Shown piece after piece: positions 955-62,302 of a stretch of DNA of 64,000 nt. The translations under genes and the position numbers were made by a program. Source of the DNA: Ectocarpus siliculosus (lineage: Eukaryota > Sar > Phaeophyceae > Ectocarpales > Ectocarpaceae); NCBI GenBank assembly GCA_000310025.1, contig FN648413.1, positions 187,690 through 251,689 of the forward strand, in the 5' to 3' direction. Below the pieces are notes generated by a model. The model did not search any database, was not told the DNA's origin, and saw only the letters and a list, made by a program, of their open reading frames with translations. Each line of letters starts with the position of its first letter. Position 1 is the stretch's first letter.

Positions 955-2399
955 CCCTTAGTTGTGATAGCAACTCGACGAGTATCGTCGCGTTGCCTGT
1001 CTGAAGCTTTCCAGTTTTTTAGCGGTTAATTAAGTCGAGGGCGCACACCGCGACACGCTCGCCCACCGAGCACGACAAAGAGTTCTGTACACAGAGTAGA
1101 TGACATAAGATGTCACACCCCTTGCACACCCCCTCCCTGAACATTTTGTTTTAATTTTCAAAGCTCGATTACTTCACAGCAGAAAGCGTGGCGTGGCCGG
1201 GCGGGCGTTGGCACCGATAGCTTTCCGAAACAAACCTATCGTTTGACATCCTCGTCGTCGTGGACTAACATTATTCGCTGTGAATATCGATGATGCGATA
1301 TATTATGTCACCTACTGCCGGTACATGCCATGCATAAGAACAAGGAGCACCCTCCATACTCCATTAAGTTTTTGTATTTATTTATTTAGTAGTTGGATTG
1401 AAACCTCTCATTATACCCATCCATGAAGAAGTCGTTTTATACGCTAATACTTCATCATAAGTGCTGCAAAAACTATCCATGGACGAACCCCGCAGTTCCG
1501 TTGTTGTGTTCCGTTGTTGTTGGCTTCACAATCAGTTACAATCCCGTTCGTTCTACTCTCTCTACCCATTACCTTCTTCGTCTGTCCGTACTACTATGTA
1601 TGATATAGTCTGACACTTGACGCGGTCGATCCCCGCCGTGGTCACAGGCTAACTTACCCAGAAAAGTTACACGAAAATAAAATTGACCCTAAGAGGGTCC
1701 GCTAGTCAACGACAGATTTGTCTAGGACCCCCCGCTCGCTTCAATACGCTATGCGAGGTAGTAGCCACAGCCTAGACAATAAAGAAACAAAAGCAAAATA
1801 ATAATAGAGGCGACCTCGTGCGCACCCGAGAATACCGCCAGTCTTCGACCGGCACTTCTCACTACGCCCATCCATCCATGCGCATGCACTTCTTGGTGCC
1901 GCGGGACTCCTCCATGCTTTCAAGAAGAATCAATGCCGCCAATCATCTCGTTGGTCTTTTTCTGTCGTTTACATACATACATGTAGTACGCACGTCACAC
2001 CCGAATGAAAAGGAGACCACACCACCAGAACGCGCTCTCCGCACGCTGGGAAAGAATCCGGGACTAAATGAATGCGGACCCCAGAAGATGCGCTTTTCAC
2101 AGCAGCAGTAGGTTTCCTCTCCGAAACGAAAGAAACGGACGGGAGAAAGGGAAAAAAGAAAAAAGAAGAGGCGTAGTACGCGTTCCCCGTCATGAACATT
2201 TAATATGAGTCGTATTGTGGGAGTGGCAGGAACCTCTCTCTCTCTGCGATCAGGTCAGAAGGCCAACAGTCCCCGGGGCTCTTCTGTTGCACCCACCCAT
2301 GGACGGACAGTAGTAGCATGTCCTTCAGTAGACAACTAACTACTGCTGAAAATATTGGAGACCACAAATCAAACCGACAGGTGGGTCGTGGGTGGGCGG
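955..2399 (+). repeat. Inverted-repeat arm L, first part
   Basis: This stretch is closely similar to the reverse complement of about 41890-43745 (arm R), beginning near TTGTGATAGCAACTCG and running to GGGTGGGCGG. Arm L continues at 9442 beyond the inserted copia element. No protein-coding frame is shared by the two copies, so this looks like a non-coding dispersed element or a segmental duplication. Short modules inside it recur elsewhere in the window, for example the GTGACCACGGGAATCGACC module that leads into CAA repeats. Confidence 0.8.
2395..2399. repeat. Target-site duplication, left copy (GGCGG)
   Basis: GGCGG directly precedes the left LTR at 2400 and is repeated at 9437-9441 directly after the right LTR. 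Arm R (about 41855-41870) keeps the uninterrupted sequence, which confirms the insertion point. Confidence 0.93.
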
Positions 2400-2724
2400 T
2401 GAAAGGTAAACTACGCGGGGTGCAGCAAGCACGTTCTGGACGTTACTTGGGGCACTGGGTAGTCGGCCGTGTTAGGCCGAGAGAGAGAGATTGAGAGAGA
2501 GTTGGAGAGAGAGTGGGAGAAGGAAACTTGATTGGAGAGAGACGGTGGTGGTGGTGGAGAGAGAGAGGAAGAAGTGAGCGCAGCACGCACGCAAGCTTCA
2601 TCGCACCAACCACGCCAAAAGGGTCCCCGTGACCGCACCGATAGTACCCTGCAACACACGAAATTCCCAACACGTATCCCCCTGGGATCCTCACGACCAG
2701 ATACTGCTGCGAGTATATCTAACA
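2400..2724 (-). repeat. 3' LTR of element 1
   Basis: The 325-bp repeat ends in TGAAAGG and TAACA on the plus strand, so TG...CA on the element strand. It contains GA-rich tracts at 2481-2575. The PPT lies directly inside it at 2725-2737. Confidence 0.95.
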
Positions 2725-3035: not shown

Positions 3036-4457
3036 TCATGCCAAATTCATTGCAAAATCACGGTGAGACTCGAAAGCGTCCTTCGGCAAGCTCTTCGTGA
3101 GAAAATCTGCACGCTGGTACAGAGACGGCACGTGGATCACCGAAATTTCCTTCCTCTCTACCAGTTCCCTGAGAAAATGGTGCCTTACATCTATGTGCTT
3201 CGAGTTCGAGTTTGAGATGGGGTTCTGCGCTAGTTGAATCGCCCCCTGGTTGTCCTCGAAGACGGGGATACACGGCATGCCGACCTGCGGCAACATGAAA
3301 CGCCAAATCTGCCTCAAAAACAAAATCTCCTTCACTATGTCACCAAGCGCGACGTACTCTGCTTCTGTCGTCGAAAGCGTGACGCACTTTTGCGTTCTGG
3401 AAAACCAAGACACAGCGCCTCCTCCACACGTCACGATTCCCCCTGATACCGACCTACGGTCTGCTGCCTTGCTTGCAAAGTCCGCATCAGCGTACCCCTG
3501 CAAGCTGAATCCTTCTACTGTACCCCTCTGAAACGAAATACCAAAGTGACTCGTCCTCCTCGCATAGCCTAAAATATCCATCGCTGCATTCCAGTGTACC
3601 AGCTTCGGAGATGCGCAATACCTAGCTACTGCCCTTACAGCATTCGCAATGTCTGGCCTAGTTTGAGTCGCCAGCCACATCAACGATCCTACCAGCTCAC
3701 GAAACGGAAAGTCTGTCGCCACCTCATCCGCATCAAAATCAGAAAGCTTCACCCCCGAAGACATCGGAACGCTCTTACCTCCCACTACTCCATATTCTGC
3801 TGCTAGCTCGTCCGCGAAAGTCTGCTGAGAAATCGTCAACCTTCCGGTCTCCTTGTTCCTCTCGTAAAAGCACCCAGAATACCATCTCAACTCTCCCAGG
3901 TTCTTCACTGGCACGGACTTGTTAAGGTCGGCGCCAAACTTATCACATCTCTCCCTCTCTCCCACAGCAAAAATGTCATCTACATGTACTACCAAAATCA
4001 AAACAACACATCCATCCTCAATCAAACGAAACACACAAGCATCGGCCATGCACTGCTCAAAACCTAACGCCACTAAACACCTCTTCAGCATTGCATGCCA
4101 CTGCCTAGATGCCTGTCTCAAGCCATACAGACTCTTGCCTAGTTTTACAATCATTCCAGATAGAGCTCCACATCCCTGTGGCAAACGCATGTACACGTCT
4201 TCCTCCAACTCCGAGCGCACAAAAGCTTGCTCAATATCGAAATGACACAAGTCGAGATTTAACTCGCACGCCAACGCAGCCAACATCCTAACACACGAAA
4301 CAGAAACGGTAGGCGCGTACAGCTCTCCAAAGTCAATGTACTCTCTCTGCATATCACCTCTCGCTACAAGTCTCGACTTCACCTTAGTGGGCCATCCAAA
4401 TTCATCTGCCTTCCAATCGAATACCCACTTAGCGTTAATTGCGTTCTCCACTAGTTG
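3036..4457 (-). CDS. Element 1 reverse transcriptase and RNase H
   Basis: About 473 codons are open from just after the UAG at 4458-4460 to the stop at 3036. The order is RT then RNase H. Visible motifs are NAKWVF and LVARG at the RT start, SLYGL-QASRQW, the catalytic HVDD box, then RNase H motifs ADADFAS, TLSTTEAEY and EDNQGA, ending with KHIDVRHHFLRE. No ATG lies close to the beginning, and the reading frame joins the integrase frame exactly through the UAG. Translation by stop-codon readthrough is therefore the simplest explanation. The segment is intact and looks functional. Confidence 0.92.
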   Translation of the reverse strand, partial: QLVENAINAKWVFDWKADEFGWPTKVKSRLVARGDMQREYIDFGELYAPTVSVSCVRMLAALACELNLDLCHFDIEQAFVRSELEEDVYMRLPQGCGALSGMIVKLGKSLYGLRQASRQWHAMLKRCLVALGFEQCMADACVFRLIEDGCVVLILVVHVDDIFAVGERERCDKFGADLNKSVPVKNLGELRWYSGCFYERNKETGRLTISQQTFADELAAEYGVVGGKSVPMSSGVKLSDFDADEVATDFPFRELVGSLMWLATQTRPDIANAVRAVARYCASPKLVHWNAAMDILGYARRTSHFGISFQRGTVEGFSLQGYADADFASKAADRRSVSGGIVTCGGGAVSWFSRTQKCVTLSTTEAEYVALGDIVKEILFLRQIWRFMLPQVGMPCIPVFEDNQGAIQLAQNPISNSNSKHIDVRHHFLRELVERKEISVIHVPSLYQRADFLTKSLPKDAFESHRDFAMNLA

Positions 4458-4460
4458 CTA
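4452..4460 (-). promoter_or_regulatory. Candidate readthrough stop, UAG-CAA-CUA
   Basis: On the minus strand the integrase frame ends GTFTPAK-UAG and continues in frame as QLVENAINAKWVF, which is RT. The six bases after UAG are CAACUA, matching the CARYYA consensus known from tobacco mosaic virus-type readthrough. Element 2 has the same arrangement at 59290-59298. Function is inferred from the context and its conservation. Confidence 0.7.
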
Positions 4461-6005
4461 CTTCGCCGGAGTAAAAGTCCCTGCTTCCAACAAGCCGTAA
4501 AACTCCCTTTGCATAGAGTCGCTCCAAAGGTGCCGGTGCTCCGACGCCATGGCCTCTTTGTAGCTCTTGGGGACACGAAGGTCGCTGGCCTGGCAGTGAG
4601 GAAGGTCAGGGCGTTGCTGCGGCGGGCGCTGGTCTCGCAGCGTGGCGTCGATGTCTTCCCGGTTGGCGAGGAGCGTGGCAAATGCGAGTGGAAAGCCCGC
4701 TCCTCCAGCCCCCGGGTCCACCGCTGCGAGTGCTCCCGCCTGTTCTCCGGCCCCCGCTCCCCCCGGCTCTCCGGCCTCCGCCCCCCCCAGCTCCCTGCGC
4801 TCCTCATCCACCGCGCTCCGAGCCTCCAGCATCGACACCAGAGTGTTCTTGTCTAGCATCGAGATGAGTCCTGTGCTGTGCCTCGTGCCCGATCTCGTTC
4901 GGCTTGGCAGCCGCGGGTCTATCATACCCTCGGCCTTTGTACCCGGGCGAAGCTGCCGCATGGCGTGAGCCGTAAGCGGGGGCATCGCGGGGTCCGGCGG
5001 CGGCGGCTGGTCTGGATCGAGGGTCGCCAACGGTGACGGCGAAGAGGCAGAAGACGGCTGGCCAGGGGCGGGGGTCGCCGACGGTGGCGGCGAAGTGGCA
5101 GAGGGCGGCTGTGAAGGCGTGGGAGCGGACGGCGGCGTGGTCGCTGGCGGCGGCGTTGCGGCAGGTGGCGTTGCGGCAGTCGAAGGCGTCGGTGCTGGGC
5201 CAAAGTTGATCGAGACGACCGGCGGCGTGAACGGGGGGGGTGTCGGTGCAGCGGTGATACCAGCGGAACCCCCCTCGCCGGCTGGCGCCGACGTCACCCA
5301 CGACACGTTGTTGGTGTAGACGACGCGACCGGTGGACGCCTTGAGGACCTTGACGGTGCCGCTCGGGTGGTTGTCGCCGCCGTTCAGGTAGAAGCAGAGG
5401 GTGGCCTGGTCGTCGAGCTTGGTGCGGCGATCCTCGCGCATGAAGCCGGGCTGGAAGAACGGCAGCACGCGGAACGGCCCTTGCTCGCCGGTGAACATCT
5501 CGTGCGGCGAGCGCCGCCCGGGGTTGGCCTTGGTCGCCGACTGGTTAAGAGCGTCGGCGGCCCACTTCGCCGATTCCATCCAAAGACGGTCACCGCGCTC
5601 GTCGAGGCCGGGGATGGAGGCGAAGTCGACGTTGAACACACGGCCAGCGCTGCGGCGGGCGGCCATGCCGGCCTTCATAATCCGCCAGATGGCGCTCTCG
5701 ACGACGCCGTTGTACTTCGGAGTGCCCAGGCGGGGTGAACTCGACGCCGATGCCGTTGTCGTCGCAGAATTGCCGGAAGTCGCCACGGGTCCACTCGGTG
5801 CCGTTGTCGACGCGGAAACACTCGATGCGCCCGAGGTCGTACCGCCCCACGTCCGCCAGCAGCCTTTTCGTTGCCGCCAGCGCGTCGGACTTCCGCCGGA
5901 GACCGTAGACCTTGTTCCACCGCGAGGCGCTGTCGACGGCGACGAACAGGTAGAGGTTGCCGCCCAGGGAAGGCACCAGCGGTCCACACAAGTCCAGGTG
6001 AACAC
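4458..6005 (-). CDS. Element 1 integrase, C-terminal part and linker
   Basis: This frame takes over after a single extra G near 5728-5730 shifts the integrase out of the upstream frame. It continues from GTPKYNGVVESAIW, which carries the catalytic Glu of the integrase D-D-E triad, through KANPGRRSPHEM, the copia GKGY-like region and a long Pro/Ala/Thr-rich linker. It then reads PDLPHCQASDLRVPKSYKEA and ends at the UAG. The first roughly 90 codons of the open frame overlap the previous one and are shadow. An ancestral copy presumably had one continuous frame from Gag to the UAG. Confidence 0.85.
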   Translation of the reverse strand: MFTWTCVDRWCLPWAATSTCSSPSTAPRGGTRSTVSGGSPTRWRQRKGCWRTWGGTTSGASSVSASTTAPSGPVATSGNSATTTASASSSPRLGTPKYNGVVESAIWRIMKAGMAARRSAGRVFNVDFASIPGLDERGDRLWMESAKWAADALNQSATKANPGRRSPHEMFTGEQGPFRVLPFFQPGFMREDRRTKLDDQATLCFYLNGGDNHPSGTVKVLKASTGRVVYTNNVSWVTSAPAGEGGSAGITAAPTPPPFTPPVVSINFGPAPTPSTAATPPAATPPPATTPPSAPTPSQPPSATSPPPSATPAPGQPSSASSPSPLATLDPDQPPPPDPAMPPLTAHAMRQLRPGTKAEGMIDPRLPSRTRSGTRHSTGLISMLDKNTLVSMLEARSAVDEERRELGGAEAGEPGGAGAGEQAGALAAVDPGAGGAGFPLAFATLLANREDIDATLRDQRPPQQRPDLPHCQASDLRVPKSYKEAMASEHRHLWSDSMQREFYGLLEAGTFTPAK

Positions 6006-8517
6006 GCCCGAGTGGCTTGGACGCCCGCGCTCCCGGCCCCCGCGGCACCGACCCTCGCCTGCCCTTCGCCTTCATGCAGTCCGTGCACGGTTCCAGCTTG
6101 CCGGTGAGCACGATGCCTCTCTGCTGGGCGGTTTCTCTCAAAAGGGGCTCGCAAGCGTGGGCAAGGGAGCGGTGGAAGCGGTTGATGTCAACGGACTTTT
6201 CAGTCGAACCAAGAGCAAACGGGGACGCACCAGGGCCAAGCGCGGCCGCACCGAAGTCAAAATCAGCACCCCCATCAATGCTATCCAAAACAGCAGCTAC
6301 ATTCGCAGCATCAGTCTCAGGGATAAACGCGGGGAAAAACTCTTGATACGGGGTGTCATCATAGCCATCCATGAGCTGCTCGTCGGTGAGCACACTCGTG
6401 TCTCCAAGATCCATACCCGGAAAAGTACCCACACAAACAAACTCGGACGCCGAAGAAGGTACTACGCCGGCAGAGCCAGCGGGAGGGAAACGCAACACGG
6501 ACACCAATGATTCCGCGGAGCCCCCTTTTTGGGAAGGGGAACGCGTGGAGCCAACGGCGGGGGCGGAATCGGGGGCAGTCACGAATGCAGGCAAAGCAGA
6601 AGAGTCTACTATAGTTGCAGATGGGTCGTATGGTAAGCGCATGGCATATGCTGCAGACGCTTTTTCCTCCCTAGCAAATAGCAGTCCATTTTGGAGGGTT
6701 GCACCATGCTCGTCGTGCAGGATTTGTTGCTTTCGAGAAACTGCATGCGTTGAAAACAAATTGAAGCTCAGGTTCTCTACTACAGACACGTCAGTCAGCT
6801 TAACACACATCGTCGTTTTTTCACCTTTCTCATCCTCCTGAAAGAAACTAAGGTTGATGCTACCGATAGCTTGCACTTCTAGCAGTCGACCATCACCTAC
6901 GACGACATACTTCCTATTTGCGGGGATCTCCTGCAGATCGTACATGTGTAGACTACTGTTGGTAAAACTGTTGCTTGCACCTGAATCAGCTACCCATCTC
7001 TCGCTACCAGGCGGCCCCTCACTAGATTCCACACTCAGCAAAGACGAAGCAGACGCAGCAGACTCAACTCCAATCGTCACTCCTATCCTACCAAAAAAAT
7101 CTTCGGGGTGAGACTTGCCTAGGGGCACCGATTGTGCCGTGCAGAGGTGGAGGTAGCCCGAAGATGGAGGCGCGCCAGGAGAAGGGGCAGAGGACGAGGA
7201 GGAAGCGGTGCTGCTGCTGCCCGCGGGGGGGGGCTGACGTGGCTGCTCGGATGATGAATCTTGACCGGCGGGAGGGTAGTAGACGTAGTGGATCCCGCCG
7301 TCAGATGAACGGCTGTCTTCGTACCCGGAGGAGTAGCTGTAGCTGTCCCCGCCGCCGGCGTAGTGGGCGTACCCGGCGTCGTGGTAGCCGTCGTCGTAGG
7401 AGTAGCCTTCGTCGTAGTCGCCGTAATCTTCGTAGTAGCCACCATCATCGTGGGCGTAGTACACAACGTACGCCTGCTCTCTTCCGTGGCCAGAACGCGC
7501 GTGCCCCGGGCCTCTCCCTGCCCGATCTCTCTCGGCACGCCCGTCGCTGCTGTGGCGTCCCGCGGGCCCACGACCCCCCGGGTGACGCCCCAGACGACCA
7601 CCAGGCCCACGTCCACGAAGAGGTCGCGGGGGGGGTGAGGCTTGGCTCCAGCCACCGCCACCATGACCGGTGTGGTGCTGCTGCTCTATCCTCACCCATC
7701 GCCCGCCACCGCGGCCCGGTCCCGGCGGCGGTCTACCCCCTCGCTGGCTACCGCCGCCACCGCGGCTGCCGCCGCCCGAGCGACGTTCCTCGGCGCCCTC
7801 TCTCGAACGCGCACGCCGCAGTTGCTGCTGGAGACGACACTGCTCGTTGGTGTGAAGCTCGGACTGGTGGTAGCGGCAAAATCCGCCGGGGTCGTCGTTG
7901 AACACGTCACTATTTTTCTTCTCTCCGTCACGATTTTGGCCGCCAGCTGCTGCCTGACCGCCGTCTTGACCCCAGGATGCCCCCCCACTGCCCCCGCCGC
8001 GCCGGCCCATGCCGGATGCGGCGAGAGCGAGCTCCACCTCGCGCCTCTCCCCCTTGCTCCTCTCGCGCTCCATCTCCACGTGGGCGTCCCTCACCACAGT
8101 CTCAAGGGTACGCAACGTCAGGACATCATGGGCAAGCAGTATTCCTTTTTGCACGGCATACAACGAAGAGGGAAGGCCACGAGCAATGTCTTTGTTGGCA
8201 TCTGTTTCATCCTTAATCGTGCCTACAGATGCGAGACGCAGGCGAAGGGCCTCTGAGCGGGCAATGTAATCCTGTGGACTCTCGGACTCTTTCATCTCCA
8301 ACTCCTTCCAGTCCTGCTCCAACCTCGACTTTTCTGACTGCTTTTTCTCCTGATAGAACTCGGTCACTATTTTCCAGCCCTTTTGGGGACTCTCACACGC
8401 CAGAATCAAGCTCTGAATCGGGGGATACATAACCTTGCTTATGAGGATATTCCACAGTTTGAAAGACTTGTCTACCACTTCATTTCCAAAAAGTCTCCGA
8501 AGGTCTCCTACATTCAC
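5590..8517 (-). CDS. Element 1 Gag C-terminus, protease and integrase N-terminus
   Basis: Domains in order are: the remainder of the UBN2-like copia Gag (SKVMYPPIQSLIL, LEQDWKELEMKE); a knuckle at FCRYHQSELHTNEQC spaced C-X2-H-X4-H-X4-C instead of the usual CCHC; a Gly/Arg- then Tyr/Asp-rich low-complexity stretch; protease with WVADSGAS; and the integrase zinc-binding HHCC (FHRSLAHAC, CTDCMKAKGR) with catalytic Asp in HLDLCGP and VDNGTEW. The last 50 or so codons are out of frame because of one extra G in the integrase. The N-terminus of Gag lies in another frame (8480-9016). Confidence 0.9.
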   Translation of the reverse strand: MNVGDLRRLFGNEVVDKSFKLWNILISKVMYPPIQSLILACESPQKGWKIVTEFYQEKKQSEKSRLEQDWKELEMKESESPQDYIARSEALRLRLASVGTIKDETDANKDIARGLPSSLYAVQKGILLAHDVLTLRTLETVVRDAHVEMERERSKGERREVELALAASGMGRRGGGSGGASWGQDGGQAAAGGQNRDGEKKNSDVFNDDPGGFCRYHQSELHTNEQCRLQQQLRRARSREGAEERRSGGGSRGGGGSQRGGRPPPGPGRGGGRWVRIEQQHHTGHGGGGWSQASPPPRPLRGRGPGGRLGRHPGGRGPAGRHSSDGRAERDRAGRGPGHARSGHGREQAYVVYYAHDDGGYYEDYGDYDEGYSYDDGYHDAGYAHYAGGGDSYSYSSGYEDSRSSDGGIHYVYYPPAGQDSSSEQPRQPPPAGSSSTASSSSSAPSPGAPPSSGYLHLCTAQSVPLGKSHPEDFFGRIGVTIGVESAASASSLLSVESSEGPPGSERWVADSGASNSFTNSSLHMYDLQEIPANRKYVVVGDGRLLEVQAIGSINLSFFQEDEKGEKTTMCVKLTDVSVVENLSFNLFSTHAVSRKQQILHDEHGATLQNGLLFAREEKASAAYAMRLPYDPSATIVDSSALPAFVTAPDSAPAVGSTRSPSQKGGSAESLVSVLRFPPAGSAGVVPSSASEFVCVGTFPGMDLGDTSVLTDEQLMDGYDDTPYQEFFPAFIPETDAANVAAVLDSIDGGADFDFGAAALGPGASPFALGSTEKSVDINRFHRSLAHACEPLLRETAQQRGIVLTGKLEPCTDCMKAKGRRGSVPRGPGARASKPLGRVHLDLCGPLVPSLGGNLYLFVAVDSASRWNKVYGLRRKSDALAATKRLLADVGRYDLGRIECFRVDNGTEWTRGDFRQFCDDNGIGVEFTPPGHSEVQRRRRERHLADYEGRHGRPPQRWPCVQRRLRLHPRPRRAR

Positions 8518-9016
8518 ACCCCTCTTCCCGACCTTGACCTCGACCTCCAGTTCTCAACGCATCATGCACACCCTCCTCCTGAAAATATGAAATCATCTTA
8601 CCACGAAAAATATCAAACATAATGTACAAGTCCTGCTCCTTCTTTACACTACCAAGCCAAGGTTCGATTTCTGAGCCTGGATTGACACGTAACGTGCCTG
8701 AGCGGGCAAAGCCCTGTTGTTGAGCGATGGCCTCAGCTGTCGCCTTGGCCGCTTGCGCCACGATGTGTGCGACGCTGCTGGGGTCGTTGAATGTGGCTGG
8801 TGTACCCTGGCTGGAGGGTGATGGTTGGTTGCCAGTAGGTGGGACTGGGTTGCCGGTTGGAGTGGCTGGGTTGCCGGCTGGTGGTTGGGCAATGGTGACT
8901 TCACCCTCGTTGATCCTGTTGGCTTCGAGTTCGGCTTGCACTCGTTGCTGGACGATCTCCTCCACTTTTTGTTGTAGCTCTTCCCCGCTGAGGGCGGAGA
9001 GGTCGATGTCCTCCAT
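8480..9016 (-). CDS. Element 1 Gag N-terminus
   Basis: The ATG at 9016 is the first after the 5' LTR and opens MEDIDLSALSGEELQQK. A predicted coiled-coil-like stretch (QKVEEIVQQRVQAELEANR) and a Pro/Thr linker follow, then the Gag core (EPWLGSVKKEQDLYIMFDIF). It leaves frame at a GGGG run near 8519-8522, where one extra G separates it from the next frame. Element 2 is not shifted at this site, so the shift looks like a lesion or a sequencing error and not a programmed event. Confidence 0.85.
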   Translation of the reverse strand: MEDIDLSALSGEELQQKVEEIVQQRVQAELEANRINEGEVTIAQPPAGNPATPTGNPVPPTGNQPSPSSQGTPATFNDPSSVAHIVAQAAKATAEAIAQQQGFARSGTLRVNPGSEIEPWLGSVKKEQDLYIMFDIFRGKMISYFQEEGVHDALRTGGRGQGREEGCECRRPSETFWK

Positions 9017-9111
9017 GGTGTTTGGTGTTGTGGGAGTCTACCGATTGCGCGTGACTGCACAACCCCCGGATGGCTACGCCCGCGCGCAGATACCGTGATA
9101 TCGCACTAGTG

Positions 9112-9436
9112 TGAAAGGTAAACTACGCGGGGTGCAGCAAGCACGTTCTGGACGTTACTTGGGGCACTGGGTAGTCGGCCGTGTTAGGCCGAGAGAGAGA
9201 GATTGAGAGAGAGTTGGAGAGAGAGTGGGAGAAGGAAACTTGATTGGAGAGAGACGGTGGTGGTGGTGGAGAGAGAGAGGAAGAAGTGAGCGCAGCACGC
9301 ACGCAAGCTTCATCGCACCAACCACGCCAAAAGGGTCCCCGTGACCGCACCGATGGTACCCTGCAACACACGAAATTCCCAACACGTATCCCCCTGGGAT
9401 CCTCACGACCAGATACTGCTGCGAGTATATCTAACA
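9112..9436 (-). repeat. 5' LTR of element 1
   Basis: This is the second 325-bp LTR, nearly identical to 2400-2724, and is the promoter LTR of the minus-strand element. The leader between LTR and Gag (9017-9111) begins CACTAGTGCGATATCACGG. I could not match it confidently to a tRNA primer. Confidence 0.95.
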
Positions 9437-15987: not shown

Positions 15988-16041
15988 CGATATCGTGGAG
16001 TCAGCTGACGTCGGTAGGGAAAGGTTCGGGAGGTAGGCACC

Positions 16042-16245
16042 GGAATACAAGGACAGCAGCAGGGCGGTATTTGCTCGCGCTCGTCAAGGAGATCCAGCGA
16101 ACAGGGTTTGGAATACAAGGGCAGCAGCTGCAGGGCGGTTTTTGCCCGCGCGTGCCAAGGAGATCCAGGGTAAGCATTTGGAATACAAGGACAGCAGCAG
16201 CAGGGCGGTTGTTGCCGGCGCGCGTCAAGGAGATCCAGCTATTAG
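16042..16245 (+). repeat. Leader tandem repeat (3 units, 68-70 bp)
   Basis: Units start at 16042, 16110 and 16180 with GGAATACAAGG and each ends with AAGGAGATCCAG. They lie between the LTR remnant and the Gag ATG of element 3, in the position of the packaging/primer leader. Confidence 0.85.
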
Positions 16246-16270
16246 AACAAGAAGCAGTTTAAGTTTAGAC

Positions 16271-19625: not shown

Positions 19626-19639
19626 CCACCTGTACACCA

Positions 19640-39591: not shown

Positions 39592-39699
39592 TCTGAAGCT
39601 TTAGCTTCAGTCTCATCTTTCAATATTTCTGAAGCTTTTGTAGCTTCAGTCTCATCTTTCAATATTTCTGAAGCTTTAGCTTCAGTCTCATCTTTCAAT
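39592..39699 (+). repeat. Tandem repeat with palindromes (3 units)
   Basis: Three units of 36-39 bp, TCTGAAGCTTTAGCTTCAGT followed by CTCATCTTTCAATATT; the second has GCTTTTGTAGC. Each contains the palindrome GAAGCT-TT-AGCTTC. Arm L has a single unit at the corresponding end (11288-11305), so the array expanded in arm R. Confidence 0.9.
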
Positions 39700-40764: not shown

Positions 40765-41055
40765 CTACCAAGATTGAACCAGGGGGGTGTACCTCTTTCT
40801 CTCCGGCCCATGATAGATAGTGACTGCTAGTCTCAGTTGAAACCTCGCATAGCGCGAAGAGGGAGTGGAGGATTCCAGAATATCTGTCGTTGATTTCTAT
40901 TGACTTGCGGACCCCTCGGGGCCAGTTTTTTTTAGTGTACCTTTTTAGGGTAAGTTAACCTGTGACCACGGGAATCGACCGGGTCGAGTGTTGGATTAGT
41001 ACGGACATACGAAGGTACTGGGTAGAGAGAGATCGGAACGGTTTTTAATGTGAAG

Positions 41056-41107
<52 letters not shown>

Positions 41108-41108
41108 C
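40765..41108 (+). mobile_element. CAA-tailed repeat inserted in arm R
   Basis: About 345 bp absent from the matching place in arm L (near 10183). It ends in roughly 17 CAA units (41057-41108) and contains the GTGACCACGGGAATCGACC module. The inverse strand shows GGTCGATTCCC, like a tRNA B box. Presence/absence between the arms marks it as an insertion. Confidence 0.65.
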
Positions 41109-41451
41109 TGCAGTGCAAATTTCATGGCGCCTCAAGTACGGTTCCGTAGGGAATTGCAAAATCACGACCCCTCCCCGACTTTGAGTATAGCTTCAACCTC
41201 CTGCGGCGAATAAGACCGACGTCAAACCCTAGATTTTGTCTGTCTGTGTCGTCATGTGGCCATCCACGAACAGCAAGCAGTTGGAGAGTCACAATAAAGA
41301 GGGTCCGCTTCGCCACCAAGAAAACAGTTTTTTTTTCGATTCTTCTACAGCTGGATATGATGCTACCATGTATCGGGTATAGCTGTGGTTGAGCTTGAGG
41401 GATGGGTCTACGGCAGCATAATATTCTTTACGAGGAGTTAGTTTTCTTAAG

Positions 41452-41551
41452 ATGACACAACGAATCCATCTCTATCATAGAAAAAGAGTCTCAGACAGAT
41501 TAGCAATTAATTCATAGCGTCAGAAAGTACCTGTATGTCTACGATTTCTTA
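41452..41551 (+). repeat. ACACAACGAATC short dispersed repeat, copy 1
   Basis: About 100 bp beginning ATGACACAACGAATCCATCT and ending CCTGTATGTCTACGATTTC. A second direct copy is at 42111-42212 and an inverted copy at about 45384-45470 within intron 1 of the plastid-protein gene. No coding capacity. Confidence 0.75.
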
Positions 41552-42110
41552 TTGTTCTTACCGGAGAGAGATACTAAACTTCTACTACAATACGTACCAG
41601 TCCGTGTAGTACCCGGGTACTGCATGTTGCGAGGTAGTGGGTGCTGCCCCTGCTGTTTGCTGCGGTACATGGAAAGCTTCCGGTGGGTCAGAGCGGCAAG
41701 GGGACCTTGTTTCTTCACTTGTTTCTTAGCTCTGCTCTCCTCTACTTCTTTGTTTCCTGTCGCTGGCGGTCTCTCATTTTTCATCGCCCTTCGGTCTTGC
41801 TTGCAAGAAACTGTGAGGATGTAAACTGGCTGAGTCTGGCTGTTTCTTAGGGTCCCCCGCCCACCCACGAACCACCTGTCGGTTTGATTCGTGGTCCCCA
41901 ATATTCTCAGCAGTAGTTGTCTACTACAGGACATGCGCTACTACTGCTGCGCCCGTCCATGGGTGGGTGCAACAGAAGAGCCCTGGGGACTGTTGGCCTT
42001 CTGACCTGATCGCAGAGAGAGGTTCCTTGCCACTACCACAATGCGACTCTTACTAAATGTCCATGGCGGGGAACGCGTACTTCGTCTCTTCAATTTTTCA
42101 TTTCTCTCAA

Positions 42111-53712: not shown

Positions 53713-54050
53713 TTAGCTTGCTTTGCTAAGACTTAAGTGCTAGGTTAGCACGGATGCGACAAAACCTAGGTTGATACTGCTTGGGTAGGTGCTTAGCCTG
53801 TTTCCTGACGCGGTAGGCGCACCTGTGGAGGAACGGAAGGATGCCGCGCTACCATAGCGTGGAGACCGGAGGGAGGAGGGGGATGAATTGGATGGGAGAA
53901 AGGCTTCAGCTGCTGGTGGACACTATGTTGCCGGCCCCAGGCTCTTCCCGCCCTTCCCCCCCCCACGCCCTGTTATGGCTGTGTGTGTTTTACCGTGTCA
54001 TCGTATATATCGAAAGTCTTATTGTGTGACTGTTATCACCTCGTACTGTC
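53713..54050 (+). repeat. 338-bp flank duplication, left copy
   Basis: The sequence from TTAGCTTGCTTTGCTAAG to CCTCGTACTGTC directly precedes the left LTR of element 2. The same 338 bp, apparently without change, recur at 61965-62302 beyond the right end of the element. Confidence 0.95.
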
Positions 54051-54382
54051 TATTCGATATACTCGTAGCATAGCATGGGGGTGGTATATTGCGTATACAT
54101 ATGCGGGGATTGCAGTGACGAACTACGGAGGGACAAGAAGTTTCTTTGTGTTTTCCTTGGGAGTGTAGTAGATTGGTGGAGATTCATGGAGATTCGTTCT
54201 GGGTATTAAAGCGTTATGCGTGACTTGATGCCGTGATGGAATGACGAGCTCAAGCACGCCCCCGATGAATACAACACGTTTTTCACCACGTCTACACGTC
54301 TTTACCTACCCGTGCGGCCCGTCATGGCCGAGCTGCTCTACGCTCCCATCACACACAACTGAGCCACCCGAATTATCGATCA
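54051..54382 (+). repeat. 5' LTR of element 2
   Basis: 332 bp from TATTCGATATACTCG to TTATCGATCA. The right boundary is fixed by comparison with the remnant at 26994-27340, where homology stops at the same CA. Confidence 0.93.
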
Positions 54383-54466
54383 CGCTAGCGTATGACACGT
54401 CGTCTACGAGATTCGAGTCGAGCTTAGTTTGGAGTATCGCTTTGCGGCGATCAGCAGCAGCCACCG

Positions 54467-57390
54467 ATGAACGACACCGAGCAAGATCGAGTGAGCGCCC
54501 GACTAGCAGAGGAGGAAGCCCGGATCAACTACTTGGTCGAACAGAGGGTAGAAGCAAGACTGGCCGAGATGTCGAGGCAAGAAGCAGAGGAGCGGAGGAC
54601 AGATGACGTCCGGACCGGAAGAGAGCACGAGGATCGCCACCAGCAACACGCGGGGCGGCCATCGGCCAACCCGACGACCGACGAAATCGCCCGCACACTC
54701 GCCGACGCCCTCACCGGTCGACTTCACGTCTCATCAGGGGACATGGGTAGAGTACCCATTAACGCAGGGACGGTTCGAATGACTGAGACTAAGCGCCTAG
54801 CGCCTTGGGATGGTGTTTTCAAGCAAGGGGAGGATGAGCAGGCTAAGTTTTTGATATTTCGATCGAACATGGTAGCTATGTTTGCCCAGGAAGGAGTGCG
54901 TGACGTAGTACTGACTGAAAAAAAAATTCCAGTTGGGAAAGAAGGCGTGAGCATGGAGGAGATGCGTAGGGTGCATTCGAGTGGACGGGTAGAAAAGGCA
55001 ATAACGGCGTGGAATCTGCTGATCACGACAGTGACATACATGCCAATCCTAACCCAGATCATCGCCGATGGGAGCCCTAGTGGAGGTTGGAAGATATTCC
55101 TCAATTATTACGAGCCGCGTGCCAGGGCCGAAAAAGAAAGGCTGTCATCTCAATATCACGCTCTTGAGATGAAAGTAGGGGAGACCCCGCAAGAGTACTT
55201 CGGGAGATTTGCTGTTTTGCGCAGTAGGCTCGCCTCGCACGGTGTTGTTTTCTCCGACGATGATGCCAATGCCCACATGGTATACCACCTTTCCGACGAG
55301 TACTCGGTAGAGAAGAAGATTCTGACCATGTCACCGATTCCCCCCTCGCGCGAGACAATTGAAAAGGCTGTGCGAGATGCTCATGCGGACTCGGTTCGCC
55401 GTCGGGAGGGGGAACCGAAGAATGGCGCGGGGCACGCGTTCGTCGCTTCCGGTGGCATCCGGGGCGATGGACGTGTCCAAAATGGGTCGAGTGGAAACGG
55501 CGGGGGTCAGGACGGAGACGGAGGCGCCCGGAGTCGGAGCAGGAGCAGGGTGAGAGGAAACAAGAAAGGCGGAGGTGAGAGAGGAGCCGACAACGACCAC
55601 TGCTACCTACATCCGCGCTTGTTCCACACCAACGCCCAGTGCTACACCCAGCGCGACCGTCGGAAGGAGCAGGAGCAGCAGCAGCCCCAACAGCAGCAGT
55701 CTCAGCAACAGCAACCCCAACAGCAGCAGTCTCAGCAACAGCAGCCTCAGCAACAGCAGCCTCAGCAACAGCAACTTCACGGACCGCCGCCGCAGCAGCC
55801 GAGCTACAGTGGGGGGGGCTGGGGCGGTGGGCCTCAGCACGGACCTCACAGCGGCTACGGAGGACAGCATCAGCACAGGTATGCAGCGCCCGCTCGTCCT
55901 CCACAACCGCCTTGGCGGCCTCCGTACGGGCACGCTAATGTGATGCACGCGTATAGTGCTATGCCCTACGGGGGGCCCGCGAATGGTACCGAGTATGGCG
56001 GGTGGGAGCAGCAGCAGCAGCAGCAGCAGCCTTCGCCAGACTACTACCAGCAGCAGCCGTACTACCCGCCTCCGACACCGTACTACCAGCAGCAGCAGCC
56101 ACCATCGCAGCCTCCGCCACCGCCGTCGTTTCAGCCGCAGCAGCAGCAGCACTCCACCCATGCCCCGCCCCAGTCGCCCTCTCCCGGAGCAGCAACCTAT
56201 CCGCCTGGGCATCTCCACTCCCTGATGGCACACTTTGTGTCCGCTGACGAGATGAGTTCGCTTTCGGTTTCGAGTGATGTAAGCAGTGTCGCATGTGGTG
56301 ATGATCTTGGCTTTGCTTTGTCTGCACAGAGTTGCGAATACAGTCCTGGTAGGGAGGTATTTTGGTCTGATAGCGGTGCAAGCAACCATTTTGTGAGTAA
56401 CAGCTCCAAGATGTACAACATCTCGCCTGTCCCCCCCGGCAAAGAATTCATCAAAGTAGGCAATGGTGCTTATTTGCGCGTGGAGTGCGTAGGTAGTGTC
56501 AATCTGGCATTTCACATGGCAGGAGGTCGATCGGGAGAAGCGGATTTCTGTGTCCAATTGACAGACGTGTACGTAGTACCAGGGATTTCGTTCAACTTGT
56601 TCTCTCTGCACCACACGCAGAAAAAGCACAGGATAATGTTGGATGAGAGGGGTGTGCACCTTTTCGGTGGTCGGCTTAGTTTCGCATACTCGGATATCGG
56701 ATGCTCTCTATCGGCCACCCGCTTGCCTCCCTCGTACCGCGACGGTGATGTAATCCCCTCTACCGTTGTCCCTCCCCCCGTTGTCCGCCAAGCGTCTCCG
56801 CCTGGTGTTGGTACTGGCCTTTTTGCGCAAAACCCCCCTCCCCCTTCTCAGATTTCAGGATCGGGTGCAGGATGCGGTCCGAGTTCGAGCTTCCCGTCCA
56901 TCGGTCCCGCCGGTGTTGTACCTTCGGCTTCGAGCTTCCCGTCCATCGGTCCCGCCGGTGTTGTACCTTCGGCTTCGAGCTTCCCGCCCATCGGCGCTGC
57001 CGGTGTCGTACCTTCGAGTTCGAGCATCCTGTCCACCACTTCCGGTGTAGTACCTCCGAGTGATGCTTCCCCGCCTATCGATGTTGATTTAGTGTCTCCG
57101 TCGATCCGAGATTTTCAGCCTGCCCTAGCCGCAGCCATCGCCTCATCCGACGTCCTGTCCCCCTCAGTCGTGAACCCGAATGTGTCGCGAGAGATAGAGA
57201 TCATGCCCCTTGAGTCCCAGGATAATTTGCCTTTGATGGACATGAGTATGTTCTTGGATGTAGGCTTGATGAACGGACAGGACTCGGTCCCGCCGGGTGA
57301 CTTTTATCCCGACCCATTAGGCGTATGTGAGTCCGTGAAGCCCCCCGTTGCGTTCGCTGTGATGCAAGATGAGTTGGACGTGCTCAGAAG
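54467..57390 (+). CDS. Element 2 Gag and protease
   Basis: The ATG at 54467 opens MNDTEQDRVSARLAEEEAR, a charged coiled-coil-like stretch, followed by the Gag core (LAPWDGVFKQGEDEQAKFLI; AWNLLITTVTYMPIL), a knuckle HCYLHPRLFHTNAQC with C-X2-H-X4-H-X4-C spacing as in element 1, and a long Gln/Pro/Tyr-rich low-complexity region (about 55665-56180). Protease with FWSDSGASNHF follows near 56360. A Ser/Pro linker contains a 54-bp tandem unit (FPSIGPAGVVPSAS, 56888-57000). The frame then shifts near 57385 and the codons after that are shadow. Confidence 0.9.
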
Positions 57391-59040
57391 ACTTTGTTGT
57401 CGAGTGCCGTGTGAAGCAAGATGTAGGTCCCCCCTCCCTTTCCCATGCTTTGGCGATTATCGCCCCCGGTGGTCCAGCGTTCACTGTAGGAAAACCCACG
57501 TCCACCATCGACATTAATTTGTTCCACGCTTCCACCGGCCACGTGAATGAATTCTTGATGAGGGAAACCGCAAAGCAGCAGGGTGTTCAATTGGTGGGGG
57601 AACTGCAGCCATGCGTCGGCTGCATCGAGGCGAAGGGCAGGAGGGCCCCGGTGCCGCGGCGTGGAGTCACCCGCGCGGCGGTACCGTTCGGCAAGGTGCA
57701 CATCGACATCACCGGCCCGTACTCTGAGGCGTTCGATGGTTCTCGTTACCTGATCATGTTCGTGGACAGCGCGTCGCGGTGGCAACGGGCGTACGGCATG
57801 CGGGCCAAGAGCGACACCCTGACGTACACGCGGCGCTTCCTCGCCGACCTGAACGGCAACGGCACTCCGGGGTGTTTCCGCATGGACAACGGTGGTGAGT
57901 TCACCAGTGCTGCCTTCGTCGCGTTCTGCGACGCCGCTGGCATCCGGCGCGAGTACACCGCACCCGACACCCCGAAGCAGAATGCGGTCGTCGAGAGCGC
58001 AATCTGGCGCGCTATGAAGGGGGGCCACGCCGCCCGTCGCCACGTCCTCTCCATGGGCCACGTCGACCTCGCCTCTATCCCCGGTATGGACGCCAACGGA
58101 CACCGGCTGTGGCTTGCATCGGCGATCTGGGCCTCCGGCTGCTTCAACCGTTCCGCGACGTCGGCCAACCCGGCCTGGATGTCGCCGTTCGAGGCCTTCT
58201 TCGGACGTAAACCGCCGCTCAACGTCGTCCCTTTTTTCCAGGAGGGGATGATGCGCGTGAAGCGCGCCAGCAAGGCGGACGTCCAATCCGTGCGTTGCTT
58301 CTACATGCACGGAGCGCGCAACCACTCCGCCGCCACTGCCGTCGTTCTCCGCGCCGACACCGGAAGGATCTGCCTGTCCAACAACGTCGTGTGGATCAAC
58401 CGCCGCACCGCCGTGCCGGCGCCGGTACCGGCCAGCGGGGGGGGCTCTTCGGTCACCGCGGCGCCCTCGCCGGCCGCCGCCGTTCCTGCAGCCGCTGCCG
58501 CACCGCCACCGCCATGGGCATCGCGGACGTACACCTACACCCCGCCCACAGCGACCACCGCTTCGCCGCCGCCCACTTCTCCGTCGATCTTCACAGGGTC
58601 CGGAGCCGCGTCGCCGATCTCCACGGCGTCTTCGAGTGCACCGCCGTCCACCGCAGCCACGCCGCCCCGTCCACCGCCGACACCCCCGCCCGCAAGCGCC
58701 GCCGCTCCCGCTCCCCATCACCCGCCGCTTTCACAGCGAGCCGTCAGAGAATTGGGCGAGAAGGAAACCAGAGTGCATGGCCGTACGCGCGGCGACCGAG
58801 TGCGCTTCATGGATGAGCAACAGCAACCGCCGTCGCCGTCAGGTGGCGGCACCGCTCTCCAACACCGCCTTGGGCTGCTGTCGATGATGGGCAAGGATGC
58901 GCTCGTCTCGTCGCTCGCCACCCGGGAGGCCGTCGATCAAGGACGTCGAGACCTGCCACCGTCCGCCAGCATCGCCCCTCCCGCTCCCCCACCGCCGCAA
59001 AGATACGAGTTTAGCAGGCCATGGGAGCGGGGGGGCCGCA
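57385..59040 (+). CDS. Element 2 integrase and linker
   Basis: After a single-base shift the frame reads EDFVVECRVKQDVG, then the zinc-binding module (LFHASTGH...CVGCIEAKGRR), the catalytic residues Asp in HIDITGPY (about 57705), Asp in RMDNGGEF (about 57880) and Glu in NAVVESAIW (about 57990), then a Pro/Ala/Ser-rich linker. Near 59030-59050, in a G-rich tract, the frame shifts again and the linker continues in the 58897-59292 frame. The long minus-strand frame over this region is an antisense shadow. Confidence 0.88.
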
Positions 59041-59292
59041 GGAGCTGGAGGGCCGGGGGGCCTGCACATGTTCGCAGCAATGTTCGCCACCCGCGAGGAC
59101 GTGGAAGCCACTCTTCGTGGCAAGCGCCCTCCTGACAAGATGCCGGACCTCCCTCACTGCCTCGCCAGCGACCTCCGCGTGCCGAAAACGTTCAAGGAGG
59201 CCATGCGGTCTCAACATTCAGAGTTGTGGGATGATGCAGTCGGTCGGGAGTTTTTCGGTCTGTTGGATGCAGGTACTTTTAGTCCGGTGTAG
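59041..59292 (+). CDS. Element 2 linker before reverse transcriptase, ending at UAG
   Basis: This reads GGLHMFAAMFATREDVEATL, PDLPHCLASDLRVPKTFKEA and LLDAGTFSPV, then UAG at 59290-59292. Element 1 has the homologous PDLPHCQASDLRVPK and LLEAGTFTPAK, then UAG. The conserved peptide directly ahead of the stop shows that the two stops are at the same place. Confidence 0.88.
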   Translation, partial: GAGGPGGLHMFAAMFATREDVEATLRGKRPPDKMPDLPHCLASDLRVPKTFKEAMRSQHSELWDDAVGREFFGLLDAGTFSPV

Positions 59293-59298
59293 CAACCA
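59290..59298 (+). promoter_or_regulatory. Candidate readthrough stop, UAG-CAA-CCA
   Basis: The UAG is followed in frame by CAACCA, which fits CARYYA, then by QPVENFINAKWVF of the RT. The third codon differs from element 1 (CCA versus CUA), yet both satisfy YYA. See the matching site at 4452-4460. Confidence 0.7.
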
Positions 59299-60715
59299 GT
59301 AGAAAACTTCATCAACGCCAAGTGGGTATTCAACTGTAAGGCAGACGAGTACGGATGGCCGACGAAATTCAAGGCAAGACTTGTAGCGCGGGGGGACATG
59401 CAGAGGGCTTCGATTGATTTTGGAGAATTGTTTGCACCCACCGTATCCGTGTCTAGTGTGCGTTTGTTGGCAGCTTTGGCATGTGAGCAGAACCTTGACT
59501 TGTGTCATTTCGATATTCAGCAGGCGTTTGTGCAGTCTGAGCTTGAAGAGGATGTTTTCATGCGTCTCCCGCAAGGTTGTGGTAGGTTATCTGGACTGAT
59601 CGTGAAGCTATGCAAGAGTCTGTACGGTTTGAAGCAGGCGTCACGACAATGGCATGCGCACCTGACGAGGTGTTTGTTACTTTTAGGATTTGTGCAGTGT
59701 TTGGCGGATGCATGTGTTTTTCGATTTATGGAGGATGGATGTGTGATCATGATCATCGTGGTCCACGTGGATGACATTTTTGCCGTAGGGCAGAAGGAGA
59801 GATGTGACAAGTTTGGCAGAGACCTCAACGAGATGGTCCCCGTGAAGAACCTTGGGGAGTTGAGGTGGTACTCCGCGTGCTTTTACCAGAGAGATCTAGA
59901 GAGAGGCCTTTTGAGGATCTCGCAGCAAAGGTTTGCAGAAGAGTTGGCTGCAGAGTACGGCGTATGAGTGGGGGAAGAGTGTGCCCTTGCCTGTGAGCAT
60001 GAAGCTCACCGACTTTGACGAGGACGAAGCGTGTGCTGATGTCCCTTTCCGCGAGTTGGTAGGATCCCTGATGTGGTTGGCCACTCAAACCAGGCCGGAC
60101 ATCGCGAATGCAGTACGAGCAGTAGCGCGGTATTGCGCGTCTCCCAAGATGGTGCACTGGAAGGCAGCACTTGGTATTTTAGGGTACGTGCGTAGGACGA
60201 GTTGGATGGGGATTACATTTGAGAGGGGTGTGGTGACTGGCATGAGCATGCAGGTGTTCGTGGATGCTGACTATGCGAGCAAGGCAGCAGACCGTAGGTC
60301 GGTTTCAGGAGGACTAGTGATGTGTGGGGGTGGGTGTGTGACTTGGTTTTCGAGGACGCAGAAGTGCGTTACGCTTTCCACAACGGAAGCAGAGTATGTG
60401 GCAATTGCCGACGTCTTGAAGGAGGTGCTTTTCTTGAGGCAAGTTTGGCGTTTTATGTTGCCAGATGCAGGTATGCCGTGCATTCAAATCTTCGAGGATA
60501 ATCAGGGAGCGATTCAGATTGCGCACAACCCGATCACGAACTCAAACTCGAAGCACATTGATGTACGGCATCACTTTATCAGGGAACTGGTAGAGAGGAA
60601 AGAGATTTCGATTACTCATGTGGCGTCGGAGTTTCAGCATGCAGATTTCTTGACGAAGGCTATCAGCAAGGAATCTTTTGCGTTGCACAGAGACTTTGTG
60701 ATGAATTTGCAGTGA
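59293..60715 (+). CDS. Element 2 reverse transcriptase and RNase H
   Basis: RT runs in frame from the UAG through LVARGDMQRASIDFGELFAP, SLYGLKQASRQW and the catalytic HVDD box (about 59765) to AAEYGV, where TGA at 59965-59967 results from a base loss or gain near 59968-59985. The +1 frame (59933-60715) then gives WGKSVPLPVSMKLTDF, LATQTRPDIANAVR, and RNase H motifs DADYAS, TLSTTEAEY and EDNQGA, stopping at 60713-60715. Element 1 has no shift here, so it is a lesion specific to this copy. Confidence 0.9.
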
Positions 60716-61016
60716 CAGAGGTGTTTTGGGATCAAATCGTGCTTTGCCGTTGAGTGGAAGAGAGAGGATATGTACGAGTTTGAACAAGAGATAGAGAGGG
60801 TCAAGTGGAGATGGTAGTGTTTTGGAAGGTTAATGTTCGGGATTTTTCTTGATGATTTGGAAGAGTTGGTATGCGATTGATTGTTTTTGGAGGTATTGTT
60901 TTGGTGTTGGAGTTTTCGATTTTGTCTTGGTTTTGATTTGTTTTGGGATGAACTGGTATGATAAGGATGACTTTGATATTTTGTTGGAGCATGACGATGC
61001 ATACGAGCAGGGGGGC

Positions 61017-61348
61017 TATTCGATATACTCGTAGCATAGCATGGGGGTGGTATATTGCGTATACATATGCGGGGATTGCAGTGACGAACTACGGAGGGAC
61101 AAGAAGTTTCTTTGTGTTTTCCTTGGGAGTGTAGTAGATTGGTGGAGATTCATGGAGATTCGTTCTGGGTATTAAAGCGTTATGCGTGACTTGATGCCGT
61201 GATGGAATGACGAGCTCAAGCACGCCCCCGATGAATACAACACGTTTTTCACCACGTCTACACGTCTTTACCTACCCGTGCGGCCCGTCATGGCCGAGCT
61301 GCTCTACGCTCCCATCACACACAACTGAGCCACCCGAATTATCGATCA
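61017..61348 (+). repeat. Right LTR of element 2
   Basis: 332 bp matching 54051-54382, preceded by the polypurine tract at 61003-61016. Unlike a normal 3' LTR it is followed directly by another copy of the element leader and Gag. Confidence 0.93.
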
Positions 61349-61963
61349 CGCTAGCGTATGACACGTCGTCTACGAGATTCGAGTCGAGCTTAGTTTGGAG
61401 TATCGCTTTGCGGCGATCAGCAGCAGCCACCGATGAACGACACCGAGCAAGATCGAGTGAGCGCCCGACTAGCAGAGGAGGAAGCCCGGATCAACTACTT
61501 GGTCGAACAGAGGGTAGAAGCAAGACTGGCCGAGATGTCGAGGCAAGAAGCAGAGGAGCGGAGGACAGATGACGTCCGGACCGGAAGAGAGCACGAGGAT
61601 CGCCACCAGCAACACGCGGGGCGGCCATCGGCCAACCCGACGACCGACGAAATCGCCCGCACACTCGCCGACGCCCTCACCGGTCGACTTCACGTCTCAT
61701 CAGGGGACATGGGTAGAGTACCCATTAACGCAGGGACGGTTCGAATGACTGAGACTAAGCGCCTAGCGCCTTGGGATGGTGTTTTCAAGCAAGGGGAGGA
61801 TGAGCAGGCTAAGTTTTTGATATTTCGATCGAACATGGTAGCTATGTTTGCCCAGGAAGGAGTGCGTGACGTAGTACTGACTGAAAAAAAATTCCAGTTG
61901 GGAAAGAAGGCGTGAGCATGGAGGAGATGCGTAGGGTGCATTCGAGTGGACGGGTAGAAAAGG
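61349..61963 (+). pseudogene. Truncated second copy of element 2 leader and Gag
   Basis: The sequence repeats 54383-54998, with a Gag ATG at 61433 and about 150 identical codons. One A is missing from the A run near 61885, which shifts the frame so that translation stops at 61913-61915. The copy ends at AGAAAAGG (61956-61963); one extra G follows and then the second 338-bp flank copy starts at 61965. The element thus ends in the order LTR, internal, LTR, truncated internal. Confidence 0.93.
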
Positions 61964-61964
61964 G

Positions 61965-62302
61965 TTAGCTTGCTTTGCTAAGACTTAAGTGCTAGGTTAG
62001 CACGGATGCGACAAAACCTAGGTTGATACTGCTTGGGTAGGTGCTTAGCCTGTTTCCTGACGCGGTAGGCGCACCTGTGGAGGAACGGAAGGATGCCGCG
62101 CTACCATAGCGTGGAGACCGGAGGGAGGAGGGGGATGAATTGGATGGGAGAAAGGCTTCAGCTGCTGGTGGACACTATGTTGCCGGCCCCAGGCTCTTCC
62201 CGCCCTTCCCCCCCCCACGCCCTGTTATGGCTGTGTGTGTTTTACCGTGTCATCGTATATATCGAAAGTCTTATTGTGTGACTGTTATCACCTCGTACTG
62301 TC
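61965..62302 (+). repeat. 338-bp flank duplication, right copy
   Basis: Same sequence as 53713-54050. It is followed at 62303 by AGGGTCACTG, which is probably the original right-hand neighbour of this segment before the retrotransposon arrived. Confidence 0.95.

Follow-up and report, generated by a model that had tools for sequence, protein, structure and literature searches.

Retroelements must balance their structural proteins against their enzymes, and the known solutions are a frameshift, a stop codon or splicing at the gag/pol border, along with the stop that stands before env in SIRE1. The original SIRE1 paper is reportedly that of Havecker and Voytas from 2003. Members of the Pseudoviridae possess one, two (gag, pol) or three (plus env) ORFs (PMC8515867), and in the available passages of a 2019 survey of plant elements, the two-ORF groups carry GAG or GAG-PROT in ORF1 and the remainder in ORF2 (PMC6317226). 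Type I readthrough is defined, in the accessible parts of the literature, by a UAG that is stimulated by a following CAR-YYA (PMC11166343, PMC2754532). A 2025 survey of transposable elements in Ectocarpus lists 35 Copia families and reports that Copia accounts for the nine gene-encoding families with the highest expression (PMC12477816); the terms stop codon and readthrough are absent from its main text, and annotation notes in its supplements may mention a stop. No report of a leaky stop at the position described below was recognised in the open-access literature, which was represented mostly by titles and the starts of abstracts and left subscription papers mostly outside, and none of the passages searched describes readthrough in brown algae.

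In the window, that is, the whole 64,000-nucleotide stretch of Ectocarpus siliculosus DNA analysed here, two Ty1/copia elements carry an in-frame UAG within the gene for reverse transcriptase (RT). The codon and its context were found to be conserved in seven families of the genome (F1–F7) and in one relative from outside it (L001), with intact in-frame coding on both sides and constraint after the stop. Comparison of these sequences makes it very probable that the UAG is a programmed type I readthrough stop of a Ty1/copia clade, resembling that of tobacco mosaic virus (TMV), which would yield an RT‒RNase H fusion as a minority product.

Two elements of the window share the stop codon

Element 2, the copy in which the stop was first noticed, lies on the forward strand and has the following features.

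54428..57517, plus strand: ORF with gag and a protease-like domain (Pol_BBD; Pfam)
57363..59135, plus strand: integrase ORF (rve; Pfam), in a different frame, with a TGA end at 59133-59135
58888..59292, plus strand: ORF closed by the UAG, with the integrase C-terminal extension and the RT N-terminal helix
59290..59292, plus strand: UAG stop codon (family F2), inside the RT N-terminus, read from the sequence
59293..59298, plus strand: CAACCA, a CAR-YYA hexamer directly 3′ of the UAG
59293..59967, plus strand: RT ORF (RVT_2; Pfam), directly 3′ of the UAG
59915..60715, plus strand: RT end and RNase H region, in a different frame, placed by aligning it with the unbroken 473-aa frame of element 1

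The UAG at 59290 and CAACCA as its next six bases are exactly where the first-pass annotation had reported them. RT was also said to continue in frame past the stop, and it does: LLDAGTFSPV-stop is followed in the same frame by QPVENFINAKWVF..., which matches the RVT_2 reverse transcriptase profile (E 2.1e-39, Pfam). The further claim that the UAG terminates the integrase frame of element 2 has to be given up, since the integrase ORF (57363-59135) runs in another frame and closes earlier, at the TGA. The frame of element 2 changes three times: from gag/protease-like (54428-57517) to integrase (57363-59135), between the integrase core ORF (57363-59135) and the UAG-closed ORF (58888-59292), and from RT (59293-59967) to RNase H (59915-60715). 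A Pfam search of the last of these ORFs gave no match, and we take it to be the RNase H region partly from its motifs. Element 2 is a damaged copy with several lesions of its own, and alone it could be a wreck. Judging from its homologues, the UAG itself is not damage; it goes beyond chance because the homologous codon is UAG in element 1 and in nearly all relatives examined.

Repeats in swapped order bound element 2. Its 338-bp flank (53713-54050) is repeated at its 3′ end (61965-62302) with 100% identity, and its LTR and gag start (54050-54998) are repeated there with 99.9% identity (61016-61963), a layout like that of a tandem or rearranged insertion or of an assembly artefact.

Element 1, on the minus strand, is 75.6% identical in nucleotides to element 2, on the plus strand, over 1480 aligned columns.

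9111..9436, minus strand: 5′ LTR stretch
5590..8553, minus strand: ORF with gag, protease-like domain and integrase core
4458..6071, minus strand: integrase C-terminal ORF, ending in GTFTPAK-UAG
4458..4460, minus strand: UAG homologous to that of element 2 (family F1)
4452..4457, minus strand: CAACTA, a CAR-YYA hexamer
3036..4457, minus strand: RT‒RNase H ORF, 473 aa, unbroken, beginning directly after the UAG
2399..2724, minus strand: 3′ LTR stretch

At its border, ...LLEAGTFTPAK is followed by UAG-CAA-CUA and then by QLVENAINAKWVF and the 473-aa RT‒RNase H frame; the one frame change of element 1 is located within the integrase. The direct LTRs of a Ty1/copia element are present (2399-2724 and 9111-9436) and are identical at 325 of 326 positions. 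A single difference between them indicates that this UAG-bearing copy inserted recently.

Elsewhere in the window, a third copia-like element (16037-20819) contains a gag ORF (16037-17164), an integrase ORF (17881-19767) and an internal repeat (17501-17739/19634-19872), and no RT was found among its ORFs tested. The segments 9440-11311 and 39677-41856 form an inverted repeat pair, 92-95% identical in four aligned pieces, to which 2154-2399 is matched at 87%. Two ORFs (30689-31348 and 35050-35958) resemble, on visual inspection, exons of a gene for a DEAD-box helicase; a Pfam search gave no match for either.

The stop codon across families of the genome

The codon was read throughout the window's own 189-Mb genome (492 contigs). 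Protein queries scored the best 90-91 of 858, 844 and 862 candidates, so that copy numbers are lower bounds. For the 90 best RT copies scored by protein search, the border was fetched in 84 and readable in 83. TAG occupies the border codon in 80 of these 83 directly read copies, always with CAA next and in 79 cases with CAA-YYA; the other three have no in-frame TAG, one showing AAG and two being frame-shifted or rearranged. Of two copies without in-frame TAG (C27:1085540-1086955 and C119:125761-127173), one has its border rearranged and an open frame of 1596 aa, and the other has AAG and an open frame of 909 aa.

Families were defined by RT identity to element 1, namely F1 (93-100%), F2 (about 75-77%, including element 2), F3 (73-74%), F4 (70-71%) and F5 (61%). 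Pattern searches were run with the stop codon left as NNN and the flanks, including the hexamer, matched within 3 mismatches; as the hexamer is part of the flanks, these searches test the free codon and not the hexamer independently. TAG was found in 134 of the 136 pattern matches from the five families (F1 35/35, F2 63/64, F3 12/13, F4 17/17, F5 7/7), the two exceptions being one AAG and one CAG, so the sense codon in most family members that the first-pass annotation had named as the telling observation against readthrough is not what F1–F5 contain. Families F6 and F7 emerged when the RT of L001 was used as the search query. Fifteen further copies were fetched, and 13 have TAG: eight of F6 with TAG-CAA-CGA (TAG-CAG-CGA in one of them) and five of F7 with TAG-CAG-CCA, while two show no recognisable border. 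Five F5 copies in this search were read only via the pattern or L113.

A stop elsewhere in the 473-codon RT occurs in only 17 of the 90 scored copies, so that decay is not shared among copies in the way the border stop is. Many F1 and F2 copies among the best 90 RT matches are nearly identical to one another. The recent insertion of UAG-bearing copies indicates that the arrangement is compatible with transposition.

Nucleotide context of the stop codon

UAG-CAR-NBA fits all eight lineages (F1–F7 and L001), and the strict TMV-type CAR-YYA fits six of them (F1, F2, F3, F4, F7 and L001). F5 and F6 have CAR-CGA, and two F2 pattern matches have CAA-GCA; both agree with NBA and not with YYA. The first codon after the stop encodes Gln in 8/8 lineages, as CAA in seven (with CAG in one F6 copy) and as CAG in F7, and the second is CTA/TTA, CCA or CGA, with A as its last base in every lineage. 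This is so even though, over the three complete RT frames counted, A stands at 16-18% of third positions; CAA makes up 17 of their 56 Gln codons. The codon before the UAG varies freely (AAG, GTG, TTG, CCC, GAG, GCT, GAA, TCG). The TMV-type hexamer persists among families that have diverged to saturation at synonymous sites.

The first-pass annotation had recognised UAG-CAR-YYA as the readthrough context of TMV, in agreement with the type I definition in the accessible part of PMC11166343. The sequence features of type I readthrough are present here: a UAG stop, CAR-YYA 3′ of it in six lineages, and in-frame open coding sequence under selection. For type III, as in murine leukaemia virus (MLV), the signs differ: CAACCA/CAACTA is not a purine-rich spacer, and folding of pseudoknot-free structures gave no consistent signal. 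A conserved downstream RNA structure was not found in five lineages (z from -0.9 to 1.6), and F4 alone reached z -3.2; if such a structure is needed for readthrough, it was missed here.

Coding frames and the position of the stop in the RT fold

The F1 copy L126 has a single frame before the UAG, open for 1570 codons (1563 from the first ATG) and holding gag, Pol_BBD and rve. Its domain order is that of Ty1/copia, Retrotran_gag_2, Pol_BBD and rve, then UAG and RVT_2. A separate Pfam match for protease or RNase H was not found in L126; a DSGAS motif and further motifs read by eye are presumably those of protease and RNase H. The UAG is the sole interruption of L126 from gag on, so that it lies inside pol as the earlier reading had it. 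The corresponding F2 copy, L127, is not intact. Upstream of the UAG, 65 of 83 copies have no stop for at least 300 codons or as far as the fetched sequence extends, and a further in-frame stop occurs within 300 codons in the other 18.

Constraint after the stop was estimated over 26 codons in 15 pairs, drawn from one copy each of F1–F5 and L001 and anchored on the KWVF motif, with F3 and L001 one codon out of register with the other families around the UAG. The values of pS range from 0.62 to 1.19 and those of pN from 0.06 to 0.32, which shows strong amino-acid constraint on the codons directly after the UAG. The first Met after the UAG is at codon 36 in elements 1 and 2 and at codon 100 in L001. 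Constraint together with so distant a Met indicates that the stretch is translated in frame as protein without a near AUG.

Aligned with three sense relatives, the stop column is position 9 of the 244-position RVT_2 profile (Pfam). The first-pass annotation had put the UAG between integrase and RT, which holds in that most of RT lies 3′ of it; it is nevertheless inside the RT domain, at about position 9 of 244, and not in a linker. For L002, a sense relative, the predicted model has a mean pLDDT of 89.5 and is similar to retroviral RTs, with a best Foldseek E of 9e-11; a search of solved structures by sequence gave no RT match. The stop column is residue 50 of this model and falls in a coil; helix 25-42 and strand 45-47 precede it, and strand 59-67 follows. 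Such a coil may accept whichever residue is inserted at the UAG. With the UAG inside the RT fold, the terminated product should carry the first RT helix, and RT should be complete only after readthrough.

Relatives outside the genome and sense controls

L001, an outside contig filed under a bacterial metagenome bin, is probably of algal origin. It reads GTFGEA-UAG-CAA-CCA after 190 open codons, and its RT is 66% identical to that of element 1. After about position 2050 of L001, another gag-like frame comes behind the RT end, the arrangement that copies in tandem or with circular permutation would show.

Among proteins, the best matches come from gene models of Ectocarpus sp. CCAP 1310/34. In that strain, models P0057, P0091, P0123, P0125, P0128, P0129 and P0134 skip the UAG via a predicted intron, and P0121 ends at it; they are probably annotation artefacts hiding the readthrough site. 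A region search with the integrase C-terminus found nothing but 16 Ectocarpus gene models, and a search of viral contigs gave no relatives.

The matches listed include 120 RT proteins of the 260-827 aa class, 103 of which are not Ectocarpus gene models. Of these 103, 77 start no more than 30 residues past the site, 19 start 31-60 past it and three later still, and four extend upstream. In the longer size class, all 91 listed non-Ectocarpus proteins are fused to upstream sequence, and these integrase‒RT proteins are at most 52% identical to the RT of element 1. A tree of 152 RTs was built with a quick method that gave long-branch warnings. On this tree 5 changes account for the state "stop", compared with an average of 50.6 after shuffling; 77 of the 80 "stop" rows have the stop inferred from the start chosen by the gene caller and not from DNA. 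One clade (SH-aLRT 99) unites 79 stop rows with 4 sense rows, and a single stop row, P0118, stands among sense rows. By alignment, the sense residues in the stop column of the clade are Gln in P0003, Trp in P0088 and P0103, and Leu in P0124, an Ectocarpus gene model. All are one step from UAG, and their presence inside the clade implies that the stop can be lost. In P0003, P0088 and P0103 the residue is possibly a recoded gene call instead; the Trp of P0088 and P0103 may reflect a genuine TGG or a TGA that the gene caller translated as Trp.

As controls, two sister groups of copia elements were taken from the same genome. All border-reaching copies (34/34 and 10/10) are open, with frames of 505-1852 aa, the sense codon being read as sequence in 4 copies and the others judged by frame length. 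Among 30 copia loci from a bacterial genome collection, 26 have a readable border, L001 included, and the other 25 are all open for at least 150 codons upstream of the border.

Alternative explanations

Several other readings would account for a stop at this place. An ordinary nonsense mutation in dead copies would suit the several other frame changes of the cited copy, element 2, but TAG in 134/136 pattern matches, in two more families and in L001, with saturated synonymous sites between them, makes this extremely improbable; moreover, the 1/326 LTR difference of element 1 speaks for recent insertion of a UAG-bearing copy, and L126 has no other interruption. If the nuclear code of the alga assigned an amino acid to UAG, the frame would run on without a break. 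Ectocarpus, however, uses the standard genetic code, the sister copia groups of the same genome have no UAG at this column, and UAG is otherwise rare inside RT frames, so that we give this idea the least credence of all.

Splicing could remove the stop, either by an intron that spans the UAG or with the UAG as a 3′ splice site (...UAG|CAA). The gene models P0091, P0123, P0128, P0129 and P0134 have a GTFTPAK|MLAAL junction, P0125 restarts exactly at QLVEN, and Ogre elements are described, in the available passages of PMC6317226, as splicing out an intron between GAG-PROT and the remainder. But introns of the GTFTPAK|MLAAL kind would cut out KWVF...RLVARG, a conserved segment that shows amino-acid constraint, and the predicted introns vary between families (P0135, P0136, P0138), as expected of gene-finder artefacts. 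An acceptor alone would take CAG as well as TAG, and CAR-NNA would be left without a reason. We therefore hold splicing to be improbable, though the strongest of the rivals. Slightly less probable again is separate translation of RT by re-initiation or internal initiation past the stop. Candida Tca2 lends it some weight, as in yeast its junction showed promoter activity but was not read through, according to the accessible part of PMC2194720. Here, however, the first Met is at codon 36 (window elements) or 100 (L001), inside the RT fold, the codons ahead of it are constrained, and UAG-CAR-NNA would again go without a reason. Non-AUG initiation of RT could still occur.

Proposed mechanism and comparison with known systems

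A programmed readthrough stop would operate as follows. The genomic RNA would present one frame with gag, the protease-like domain, integrase, UAG and RT‒RNase H. Most ribosomes would halt at the UAG and release Gag-PR-IN with a short N-terminal stub of RT, and the CAR-YYA/NBA hexamer would let a minority insert an amino acid and make the Gag-PR-IN-RT-RNase H fusion. The amount of RT relative to Gag and integrase would then be set by the leakiness of one codon. As the stop falls within the fold of RT, readthrough would be the sole source of RT. Readthrough, its rate, the product ratio and proteolytic processing are inferred.

We further think it fairly likely that this clade moved translational control from the gag/pol border into the RT gene. 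RT would be made only as a fusion across the UAG, with one leaky codon setting its dose per particle; Gag, protease and integrase would be made together, and the terminated product would end in a C-terminal tail formed by the conserved RT helix. A single origin of the stop would predate the spread of the clade beyond this genome, and a few losses would have followed. A stop conserved inside RT while synonymous sites are saturated would mean that integrase can be produced at the level of Gag while RT is rationed. The families supply the same putative readthrough site many times over, as natural replicates within a brown alga, gene models that end at the UAG or splice around it are likely wrong, and the question of RT dose can be approached with a short reporter.

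The closest likeness is to the replicase of TMV, with type I readthrough at UAG followed by CAR-YYA, which six of the eight lineages share; as in type I sites, no conserved downstream structure was seen and the upstream codon is not conserved. Unlike in TMV, the UAG belongs to a retrotransposon, where it separates integrase from most of RT, and two lineages have CGA as the second codon. Among Ty1/copia elements, the soybean Sirevirus SIRE1 also combines an in-frame stop with suppression, as reported in the accessible parts of PMC2829016 and PMC2194720. Its stop parts pol from an envelope-like ORF, whereas pol is split here inside the RT domain; a stop before position 10 of the RVT_2 profile is not a pol/env suppression site of the SIRE1 type. 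Tca2 of Candida and VdLTRE5 of Verticillium are likewise Ty1/copia elements with one in-frame stop between two ORFs; as far as the available passages describe them, that stop is a UGA at gag/pol, and in VdLTRE5 it stands without CARYYA. The gag-UAG-pol of MLV (type III) resembles the present case in that an in-frame UAG sets the amount of RT. The MLV stop, however, lies at the gag/pol border and, in the sources as available, needs a purine-rich spacer and a pseudoknot, none of which was seen here. Finally, as in two-ORF plant LTR retrotransposons, the polyprotein is split over two ORFs, but the division is a different one: ORF1 comprises gag, the protease-like domain and integrase, and ORF2 comprises RT‒RNase H.
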